A DNA stretch of 64,000 bases, taken from assembly GCA_025359065.1 (NCBI GenBank), contig JANYHM010000058.1, forward strand, positions 1-64,000. The letters run 5' to 3'. How positions within the stretch are numbered: position 1 is the stretch's first letter; each line of letters starts with the position of its first letter. Shown piece after piece: positions 50,821 through 54,203 of the stretch. The notes beneath the pieces are model-generated. The model made no database searches. It was given only the letters and a program-made list of their open reading frames with translations, and was not told where the DNA came from. Made by a program: the position numbers and the translations under genes. This DNA comes from Synechococcales cyanobacterium GL140_1_metabinner_5_sub. Its GTDB lineage: Bacteria; Cyanobacteriota; Cyanobacteriia; Cyanobacteriales; Chamaesiphonaceae.

Positions 50821-51480
50821 ATGCTAGAAGCTTTTACTGCTGGATTACTATTAATCACTGCCTCGGAATTAGGAGACAAAACCTTTTTCATGGCCGTGGT
50901 CTTGGCGACCCGCTATCCTCGCAAGCCCGTGTTGATCGGCGTGGTCAGCGCACTGGCGACCATGACCGTATTGTCAGTAGGCATTGGGCATTTTTTGATG
51001 TTATTGCCCCAATTTTTGCTGCAACATTTACCATCTAATCTGGCTTTTTTAGCCAAGATTACGATTCAGCAAGTCGCTGCCCTTTTGTTTTTCTTGTTTG
51101 GCCTGAAACTCTTATATGAGTCTCGGCAAATGTCGGCGCAGACCGATGAGGAAGTTAGAAATGAAGCCGCAGAAGCTGTGGAAGCAGGAGAGCGCAAGTT
51201 TCAACAGCGCAATACTTTCTGGAAAATTGTGATTGAGAGTTTTGTCCTAACTTTCGTTGCTGAATGGGGCGATCGAACCCAAATAGCCACCATTACCCTA
51301 GCCGCTGCCAAAAACCCGATCGGAGTAACAATTGGTGGCATTCTAGGACATACAATTTGCTCTTTGATTGCCGTGTGGGGCGGCAAAATGATTGCTGGTC
51401 GCATTTCTGAAAAAATAATTACGATCGTTGGCGGATTACTTTTTATCTTGTTTGCAGTTCTCACCATCTGGTTAGGCTAA
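50821..51480 (+). CDS. TMEM165/GDT1 family transporter (manganese exporter Mnx-like)
   Basis: 219 residues with six or seven helices in two repeats, each bearing the family motif: ASELGDKTFFMAV and VAEWGDRTQIATI. In Synechocystis the homologue Mnx moves Mn2+ out of the cytoplasm toward the thylakoid lumen, supplying photosystem II. ATG at 50821 is preferred; TTG at 50812 would add three residues. Its TAA overlaps the stop of the convergent ARPP-2-like gene by two bases. Confidence 0.87.
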   Translation: MLEAFTAGLLLITASELGDKTFFMAVVLATRYPRKPVLIGVVSALATMTVLSVGIGHFLMLLPQFLLQHLPSNLAFLAKITIQQVAALLFFLFGLKLLYESRQMSAQTDEEVRNEAAEAVEAGERKFQQRNTFWKIVIESFVLTFVAEWGDRTQIATITLAAAKNPIGVTIGGILGHTICSLIAVWGGKMIAGRISEKIITIVGGLLFILFAVLTIWLG

Positions 51481-52625
51481 TATTTACGCAGAGCTTTTTC
51501 AGCCTGCTCCCGCACCTGATTATTGATGAGGTATCCCAAATCAGCTTTTTCCATTCGTTTTACTAAACTAGCCAAAGTTTCATTGAGTGAAGCTGCGGCT
51601 TTTTCTAGTTGCCAATTATGCCGATCGAGCGTTTGCAATAAGTAAGCTCTACGAGTCTGTACCGCCGATAGGCCATAAATTTTTAGATATTGCAAATTAC
51701 CATGATCATCTATGATCGACTCGCCAATATAGTTAGTATGGGTTCTATCTAAATCAGTAATGAATCGCTGAAGACTAAAGACTCCGGCCTGATATATTTG
51801 CTGTGATTGAATGGGTCGCTGTAATAAGTCTTCGCTCATCATCGATTGTACGTCGCTCCATTCTTGACGCATCTTAGTTAATGCTGATCGCAGATCAGCT
51901 AAGTTATGAATGCTTTGATCTTTGATAGCACACCTTAATTCTTGAGCCTGACCATAGAGTCCATAGTAATAAAAAGTTTCACCATAGGCATCGGTCAACA
52001 GCATTTCATGCAGGTCTCGATAGTCTTTGGGGTGGGGCAAAATAAAAGCGGTAGCCAGCATCTCGCCCACAAATAACAAGACCCCTACCTGATTTTCGTG
52101 AATTTCAAACACCCGCAAAGCTTCACTCAGATCAGAGATCGATCGACCAGTAATCGAATACTCGGTGCGCGGTGACAAGCCGGTAGACCGAGAGCGTCGT
52201 GAATACTCTTGCCAAGCAATGGTTGGCCCCTTAAAAAACATCCCCATAAAACCCTCCATGGCCATTTCTAACGGCAAAAAACGCAGTGAGTTTTTGTTTC
52301 CCCCCTTATTTTCTCGTTGCGCCATCCGTCGCATAACTTTAACGCCACCAAACTGATCAGACTTATCGCCCAACTGACCACCTAAAGATGCCACTGGCTC
52401 TCCATCATCACTCCAGTTCAACACCAAACCGTGGGGCACATAGCTATGATATAAGGTGTTGTCGTCGGTACTGACAACAACCCGACTATTGTAACTACGC
52501 TTAGCCAATCGTAGATCTTCTCTATAACCCTTACTCACCAATGGTACTAACCTGATTGACCCCCAGACTTGACTAGGAGCAACCTCTAAGTTATGAAGAG
52601 CAATGGTTTCAAGTAGTTTAGTCAT
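51477..52625 (-). CDS. ARPP-2-like protein with C-terminal Fis-type helix-turn-helix
   Basis: 382 residues. The N-terminal beta-rich part (SQVWGSIRLVPLVSKG) leads into a conserved core FLPLEMAMEGFMGMFFKGPT then IAWQEYSRRSRSTGLSP and FEIHENQVGVLLFVGEMLAT. I recall this as the ARPP-2 type of protein linked with ADP-ribosyl-glycohydrolase and phosphatase genes in RNA-repair-like operons; the match is from memory. The last 55 residues (LDRHNWQLEKAAASLNETLA) look like a Fis/HTH_8 helix-turn-helix. It lies 3 nt after the vWA gene, so the two form an operon. Confidence 0.55.
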   Translation of the reverse strand: MTKLLETIALHNLEVAPSQVWGSIRLVPLVSKGYREDLRLAKRSYNSRVVVSTDDNTLYHSYVPHGLVLNWSDDGEPVASLGGQLGDKSDQFGGVKVMRRMAQRENKGGNKNSLRFLPLEMAMEGFMGMFFKGPTIAWQEYSRRSRSTGLSPRTEYSITGRSISDLSEALRVFEIHENQVGVLLFVGEMLATAFILPHPKDYRDLHEMLLTDAYGETFYYYGLYGQAQELRCAIKDQSIHNLADLRSALTKMRQEWSDVQSMMSEDLLQRPIQSQQIYQAGVFSLQRFITDLDRTHTNYIGESIIDDHGNLQYLKIYGLSAVQTRRAYLLQTLDRHNWQLEKAAASLNETLASLVKRMEKADLGYLINNQVREQAEKALRKY

Positions 52626-52628
52626 GAT

Positions 52629-54050
52629 CTAAGATTTAGCAAGAATATCTTGAGCGCGCTGGAGTAAATAGGTTTCTAGTTCATTTAGGCTGCCTTGGCC
52701 ATTAGCAAAACGCATAAAAGCCAAAACAGTAGGCAGATCTTCGGCTTCCCGTATGCCGATCGTCGGCACCAAAGGACTAATTTGCTTCAGCTCATAGTCA
52801 TTAGCATTAAACACCGGGTTGCAGTGGACGATCGAGACCTGTCGCTGGAGATCTATTTTTTTATAGTAAACTCGCAACAGCTCAGCCACTGCCCCTGGCG
52901 GATCATTTTCCCAGCCATCAGAAATTACTACAATCAGCTCCGGCTGCCAATCTAAGGCATCTAAAATAGGATTGGCCAGATCAGTTTGACCTCGGGGCGT
53001 TGCCAACAAAGGGTCAGCCAGTGGAACTGTCCAAAAAGCTTGATATTCTCTAGAAACTTGTTGCAGTAAACAGTCCACAGCTAGGGCAATCCCCAGCGGA
53101 CGACGGCGTTTTTCACGGGAACCCGAGCTAGAGTAGCTCCGATCGAGCACCGCTGCTACTTTCCCAAGTTGCAGAGGAGTATTTTTTAATATTGTCGCTG
53201 CACTTTTGGCCAGCCAGTCAGCTAGTTCTAACCGCTGCTCTTGGCGCTGTTTAAGATCTAGAGATAACAAATAGAGCGCCAGTTTCGTGAGCGGTAGACG
53301 CTGAGGATCGATCGATAATTCCATTTCAGCCTTATGGGCGCTACCTTGCAGCCGCAGCTTTTCCCCTGTCGTCATTTGCCCTTGGATTTTTTCTAGAAAT
53401 ACCTTGCGAGGAATCTGATGCTTTACCGCTAATCCTTCAGCTACAGTAAAGGGCAGGGCATAAATGGCACTGGCGCTATAAAAAGCTTGGCGAAACTTCT
53501 CAAAAATTTCGGTATCAAAGCTTTTTTCCCAGTGACCAAACAAAAAGTTGCTAAGTTCTGGTTCTAGCTTGAGATGAAAGTGAGAAGCGATCGCCCGCAG
53601 CTTTGATCGATATTTAACAGCTTGGAAAGCTAGCTTATCACCTCGGCTATTGATGTAGGCTTGGGCGATCGATCTTGCCCGTCGATTGTTGATGCTTTTT
53701 TTGCGGAGCTGTAATAATAATCCCCATGCTCTTTGGGGCGGCAATCGATCGAGAGTAACAGTAATTAATTGATTCTCAATTGATTGCTTATTGGGGGAGG
53801 CCGATTTACCGGTAGCCAATAATTTGAGGATAATCTGAGCTTGGTTGAAGTGATTAATGCCAGCAGCAAGTGTCAGAGTATAAAGCTGCCGATAGTTACC
53901 CAGAATGTAATCATGCAGAAAATCTAAAGAAATCTTTTGACCATAGCTATAGCTGTATTCATCATAAAATTCACCCTGACCAGTGCAGGACAAACAGGCG
54001 TTAATAAACATTACCAAGTCTTCGCGTTCGACTTGTTCGATGAGCTTCAT
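52629..54050 (-). CDS. vWA-domain protein with helical N-terminus (TROVE-like layout)
   Basis: 473 residues. About 1-290 are predicted helical without recognised motifs. The C-terminal von Willebrand A domain has a complete MIDAS: DRSYS (Asp303, Ser305, Ser307), Thr356 in RGQTDLANPIL and Asp378 in IVVISDGWEN. Helical repeats followed by a metal-binding vWA domain is the plan of Ro60/TROVE proteins that bind small RNAs, but I see no direct TROVE signature. First gene of a two-gene operon. Function unknown; RNA or protein scaffold is inferred. Confidence 0.6.
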   Translation of the reverse strand: MKLIEQVEREDLVMFINACLSCTGQGEFYDEYSYSYGQKISLDFLHDYILGNYRQLYTLTLAAGINHFNQAQIILKLLATGKSASPNKQSIENQLITVTLDRLPPQRAWGLLLQLRKKSINNRRARSIAQAYINSRGDKLAFQAVKYRSKLRAIASHFHLKLEPELSNFLFGHWEKSFDTEIFEKFRQAFYSASAIYALPFTVAEGLAVKHQIPRKVFLEKIQGQMTTGEKLRLQGSAHKAEMELSIDPQRLPLTKLALYLLSLDLKQRQEQRLELADWLAKSAATILKNTPLQLGKVAAVLDRSYSSSGSREKRRRPLGIALAVDCLLQQVSREYQAFWTVPLADPLLATPRGQTDLANPILDALDWQPELIVVISDGWENDPPGAVAELLRVYYKKIDLQRQVSIVHCNPVFNANDYELKQISPLVPTIGIREAEDLPTVLAFMRFANGQGSLNELETYLLQRAQDILAKS

Positions 54051-54075
54051 TTGGAGAGATGTAATCGGTACAGTG

Positions 54076-54155
54076 GCCGACGGGGCGAGGCGGCACGACG
54101 GGCTATGGCCAAGTTATAGTTGGATTTCGGAAGTCGCACCAAAGTCCCACGACGG
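54076..54155 (-). promoter_or_regulatory. Repeated CCGTCGTG motifs upstream of the vWA operon
   Basis: CACGACGG occurs at 54094-54101 and 54148-54155, with a related CCGACGGGG near 54078, inside a locally GC-rich stretch. On the minus strand (the operon strand) these read CCGTCGTG. They lie 30-105 nt before the vWA start, where operators or an RNA element would be expected. Confidence 0.3.
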
Positions 54156-54203
54156 TTTAGATATCTTAGCAAATAAATGTGGGGTTTGACTGCCAAAGGT
54201 TTA

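Follow-up and report, generated by a model that had tools for sequence, protein, structure and literature searches.

In the analysed window, a 64,000-nucleotide stretch of contig JANYHM010000058.1 from the 3.9 Mb genome of Synechococcales cyanobacterium GL140_1_metabinner_5_sub, an apparent minus-strand operon of two genes was found. The first gene encodes a vWA-domain protein that is Ro60-like by remote homology, as judged from profile comparison and a predicted fold, and the second encodes a protein of the ARPP-2 family. Across cyanobacteria, the vWA and ARPP genes behave as one functional unit which is jointly kept or lost. We consider the chances about even that this unit serves as an accessory and mobile module for Ro60-like RNA surveillance in which ARPP is an obligatory partner. 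Both genes were taken to be real because they are conserved at the protein level in dozens of genomes. The original prediction, made from the sequence letters, had placed the pair at 51477-54155 with a spacing of 3 nt between stop and start; the spacing was exact (Table 1), and the range includes 105 nt of non-coding DNA upstream of the vWA start codon.

The metal ion-dependent adhesion site (MIDAS) of the vWA protein was complete, and the predicted residues D303, S305, S307, T356 and D378 were correct to the residue. In ten divergent homologues from three phyla and a phage, D303, S305, S307 and D378 were invariant and T356 was nearly so; N121, R148 and H157 were likewise invariant. The N-terminal halves were basic in all ten proteins, with isoelectric points (pI) of 8.6-10.1, as in TROVE, and the vWA halves of the same proteins were mostly acidic.

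The Ro60-like layout proposed at the outset was confirmed as remote homology both by aligning profiles with each other and by searching for similar folds. Using hhalign, the vWA family profile was compared with that of eleven cyanobacterial TROVE proteins, without use of the structure model, resulting in a probability of 95.5% and an E-value of 1.5e-8 over 377 columns, i.e. near full length. The real score was 72.6 versus at most 27.0 for 30 column shuffles and 14.4 for the reversed profile. The E-value for the helical N-terminal half alone was 3.6e-6, and a profile of cyanobacterial members only (A1) gave 1.5e-6 over the full length. The TROVE set was authentic, as it retrieved human, Xenopus and Deinococcus Ro60 from the PDB at E-values of 1e-132 or lower (best 1e-137). 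A sequence search of the PDB with the vWA protein and its profiles returned nothing meaningful.

An AlphaFold model of the vWA protein was built from a four-sequence alignment, with a mean predicted local distance difference test score (pLDDT) of 72 and a predicted template modelling score of 0.74. The 12 best fold matches in the PDB by Foldseek were all Ro60, Rsr or TROVE structures (E 1.5e-5 to 3e-4). With VIA-align, the alignment to a TROVE structure reached a Z-score of 16.8 over 378 residues, spanning residues 10-467 of the model, versus 12.1 for the best vWA-only chain, the vWA-only proteins covering about 175 residues. No claim is made on the membership of the protein in the TROVE family in the Pfam sense.

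The resemblance of the second protein to ARPP-2 was borne out by a match to PF22549 with an E-value of 2.3e-99 and 332 bits, compared with the curated cut-off of 27. ARPP-2 was determined to be homologous to ARPP-1 (hhalign E 1.9e-9), and 15 of 16 ARPP-2 members also matched the ARPP-1 model (PF20208), weakly. The cysteine of ARPP-1, located in a CVQ/CIQ motif, was missing from every ARPP-2 aligned, and the inspected ARPP-1 proteins with a linked vWA gene had it. The predicted Fis-like helix-turn-helix (HTH) at the C-terminus was found plausible. By sequence, HTH_8 was weak, with an E-value of 0.02 in the ARPP-2 of the window and matches in three of 16 relatives (best 5e-4). Foldseek supported it by aligning the C-terminus to the DNA-binding domains of NtrC4, NtrC1 and Fis, the best rows having a probability of 0.93-1.00 and 1.2-1.8 Å over 41-42 residues; the E-values stayed above 0.3 because the match is short. 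The original prediction had linked ARPP-2 to operons believed to respond to RNA damage, which was not upheld by the published context: ARPP was described in systems centred on ADP-ribosylglycohydrolase (ARG) and suggested to remove ADP-ribosylation, where it is predicted to act on ribose, the proposed substrate of ARPP-1 being ribose moieties derived from ADP-ribose (PMC9503650).

The coupling of the two genes was determined in 292 genomes across the cyanobacterial phylum and in 389 Cyanobacteriales genomes. In the phylum set, ARPP-2 and the vWA gene were present in the same 14 genomes. In the Cyanobacteriales set, all 40 full-length ARPP-2 genes and all 13 ARPP-1-type genes were accompanied by a vWA gene; the latter had been picked up as weak PF22549 matches, and those read were ARPP-1 with the cysteine. 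All 51 linked pairs of this set were on the same strand with vWA upstream. The spread was patchy, with 50 of the 389 genomes above the Pfam cut-off. In five genomes, both genes were retained on different contigs. Six ARPP genes without a vWA gene were fragments or interrupted copies, one of which (in genome G555) keeps three-quarters of the gene. Seven vWA matches had no PF22549 match: two adjoined ARPP-1, two were found with decayed copies of both genes, one was truncated beside a likely transposase and two ran off the end of a contig. Between the vWA and partner proteins, the distance matrices correlated with r = 0.97, to which shared ancestry contributes.

Interrupted arrangements were also observed. 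On two Nostoc plasmids, XisH/XisI lies between vWA and ARPP-2 (L034 9457-10193 and L047 8146-8882), and at L148 4666-6550 two other genes are located in this position. On plasmid pn3 of Nostoc sp. UHCC 0926 (L036 8001-9416), the vWA gene contains an in-frame TAG and is unannotated, with ARPP-2 intact.

Homologues of the vWA protein at 21-25% identity were encoded directly upstream of ARPP-1 in Alkaliphilus, Nonomuraea, a 462-kb phage and further cyanobacteria. The Alkaliphilus pair is carried on a megaplasmid, and the genes of the Nonomuraea pair overlap by ATGA. The phage is uncultured and is a single case, the same huge phage being present in two collections; no relatives were detected in the viral contigs scanned with the cyanobacterial profiles. 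The ARPP-2 form was found on three Nostoc plasmids, two of them conjugative. ARPP-1 also occurs without this vWA gene, in cyanobacteria outside the group. A Macro-domain protein is encoded about 3.5 kb downstream of the pair in the huge phage (L037 14081-14659), and a TerD gene is located upstream of the Alkaliphilus pair (L033 6318-7085).

These data are compatible with the following mechanism. The vWA protein would be a divergent Ro60/TROVE-like protein in which basic helical repeats probably form a ring. The vWA domain, whose metal site is intact, would close this ring, and the protein would probably be able to capture structured or aberrant RNA. ARPP would be its obligatory partner. The ARPP-1 form probably has enzymatic activity towards the terminal or ADP-ribosyl ribose of the RNA held in the ring, since the ARPP-1 of the distant pairs retains the cysteine. 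The ARPP-2 form is more likely a sensor of such an RNA end and a nucleic-acid binder, either a DNA-binding regulator or an RNA adaptor, because the cysteine was lost and a Fis-like HTH was gained. The unit is accessory and mobile; its patchy distribution, frequent decay and carriage on plasmids and a phage suit a role in stress or virus conflict better than housekeeping. We infer RNA binding, a physical complex of the two proteins, ribose or ADP-ribose chemistry, a biological trigger and a conflict role. A tentative extension, which we regard as somewhat doubtful, is that the ring presents damaged or ADP-ribosylated RNA to ARPP in a mobile system of bacteria and a huge phage and thereby constitutes a third bacterial Ro60 pathway. 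The other two are Y RNA-PNPase decay and the rtcBA repair operon.

Several results weigh against the Ro60-like surveillance module. The TROVE model (PF05731) matched neither the vWA protein nor its relatives (sets A1 and A11), and the vWA protein had no match to any other Pfam model. The vWA model was of moderate confidence, given its mean pLDDT, the Foldseek root-mean-square deviations were high and the closure of the ring is predicted; the structure prediction of ARPP-2 was poor (pLDDT 45). The N-terminal half of the A1 profile by itself gave a non-significant E-value of 0.005 with TROVE, which indicates that the distant vWA homologues carry part of the signal. Human Ro60 H187 contacts Y RNA (PMC4030889), and its counterpart was ambiguous, being either H157, invariant in the ten homologues, or H159, which is aligned with H187 in the cyanobacterial profile only. 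No Y RNA was detected near the pair by Rfam, the coverage of bacterial Y RNAs in Rfam being unchecked. The neighbourhood check suggested in the original prediction was negative: no RNA-repair gene (RNA ligase, RtcB) and no ARG recurs beside the pair across the loci.

The C-terminal HTH, together with the absence of the ARPP-1 cysteine from every aligned ARPP-2, would also agree with ARPP-2 being mainly a transcription factor, i.e. an ARPP-derived, non-enzymatic sensor on a Fis-type HTH which regulates vWA and other genes. This is possible for the ARPP-2 form, though on the whole we doubt it. However, the HTH is missing from the ARPP-1 proteins paired with this vWA family, and regulation is thus not the common function.

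According to another explanation, the vWA protein does not bind RNA and acts as a peptide-binding co-chaperone that depends on its MIDAS, and the role of the pair is to repair or recognise ADP-ribosylated proteins, as in the ARG-centred proposal. The co-occurrence of vWA and ARPP in ARG systems provides a published precedent (PMC9503650), and the intact, nearly invariant MIDAS and the mostly acidic vWA halves are in agreement with it. In contrast, both the vWA domain and the helical half share the similarity to Ro60, the N-terminal half has a strongly basic character, no conserved neighbour family recurs next to the pair and the only ARG match of the source genome is on another contig. We consider the co-chaperone explanation rather unlikely.

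Two co-directional and tightly linked genes with a patchy distribution and plasmid carriage might also suggest a toxin-antitoxin pair, which is very improbable: both proteins are large and strongly conserved, five genomes hold both genes at separate loci and no PADLOC match was obtained. This reading was rejected because the two genes decay jointly and the chromosomes read contained no intact orphan of either. The mere linkage of two independent accessory genes, to which their usual travel as neighbours, plasmids included, might be ascribed, is the least credible explanation given the complete co-occurrence and joint decay, the retention of both genes when unlinked and the unchanged gene order where the partner is of another ARPP class, as seen in three phyla and a phage.

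The coordinates of the operon features are presented in Table 1.

Table 1. Features of the vWA-ARPP-2 locus in the window.
Feature	Position	Strand	Description
Ro60-like vWA gene	52629..54050	-	473 aa; basic helical N-terminal half (~residues 1-290, pI 9.5) and vWA domain
ARPP-2 gene	51477..52625	-	382 aa; ARPP-2 domain at residues 9-281; Fis/NtrC-like HTH at ~residues 321-361; without the ARPP-1 cysteine
3-nt spacer between vWA stop codon and ARPP-2 ATG	52626..52628	-	apparent operon
Intergenic region 5' of the vWA gene	54051..54203	-	likely promoter/leader; no Rfam match, folding z -0.8

The intergenic region upstream of the vWA gene showed no unusual folding in addition to the lack of an Rfam match, hence it gives no evidence of a Y RNA. 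A convergent GDT1 gene and a polysaccharide deacetylase gene border the locus, as determined by a Pfam scan, with no adjacent MoxR AAA+ ATPase. The other open reading frames within several kb, assigned by eye without a Pfam scan, encode NusG, ribosomal proteins, GroEL and others, with no AAA+ ATPase among them. The convergent ends of the GDT1 and ARPP-2 genes share a 4-nt overlap (51477-51480). GDT1 and the polysaccharide deacetylase are not recurrent at other pair loci, except for GDT1 adjoining ARPP-2 in the closest relative (L015). No usable match was obtained from PADLOC or NCBIfam. The RtcB genes of the source genome are on other contigs, unlinked to the pair, and the genome contains no true TROVE gene. 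True TROVE genes were present in 11 of the 14 pair genomes versus 19 of 278 others, a comparison which is uncorrected for phylogeny and genome size and was not used as evidence.

At seven Nostocaceae loci (L040, L041, L048, L138, L139, L140 and L146), a divergent EAD4-NACHT (STAND NTPase) gene and a 122-aa family without a Pfam match were located directly upstream of vWA. Three genomes, all from a single genus, have the pair immediately upstream of a same-strand 16S rRNA gene (L041 4638-6128, L048 5057-6546, L138 ~7451). The unlinked vWA gene of the closest relative G292 has a NADAR-like gene, recognised by eye only, two genes downstream (L117 5369-5815).

The claim that the pair forms a single system without experimental description agreed with the literature searched, in which no such description was found. 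A stand-alone two-gene unit of Ro60-like and ARPP proteins was not found either, though a mention in the founding RNA-repair survey is possible. What is already known is the architecture, from Ro60, and the presence of both vWA and ARPP genes in ARG systems. To our knowledge, little has been established about the roles of bacterial Ro60 beyond Deinococcus and the rtcBA operon. The present analysis extends the Ro60-like architecture to proteins unrecognised by Pfam and ties it to ARPP. Through the obligate pairing, which extends over three phyla and a giant phage, the function of ARPP becomes testable with a defined partner, on RNA ends versus ADP-ribose. Searches on ARPP-2, DUF6569 and PF22549 yielded only PMC9503650, and no paper testing the predicted ribose action of ARPP was found.

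In comparison with known systems, the pair differs from the MoxR-vWA ternary conflict systems (PMC7159879) in having neither a MoxR ATPase nor effector domains fused to the vWA protein, whereas a MIDAS-bearing vWA domain and a patchy accessory distribution are common to both, and an EAD4-NACHT gene adjoins the pair in some Nostocaceae. Like the ARG-centred systems (PMC9503650), it brings vWA and ARPP genes together, its ARPP-2 is homologous to ARPP-1 and distant relatives of the vWA protein are paired with ARPP-1 itself; in contrast to them, ARPP-2 has an HTH and no conserved cysteine, no ARG is linked and the unit consists of two genes. Ro60/Rsr is a TROVE and vWA RNA-binding protein, encoded in bacteria in rsr-Y RNA-rtcBA operons (PMC7790460). 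Unlike Ro60/Rsr, the vWA protein has no TROVE Pfam match, no detected Y RNA and no rtcB/rtcA neighbour, it is always paired with ARPP, and the pair genomes often hold a separate true TROVE gene as well. The two share the domain order, the fold according to Foldseek and VIA-align, profile similarity over nearly the full length, the basic helical half and the MIDAS, and the vWA family has an invariant histidine in the stretch aligning with Ro60 H187.

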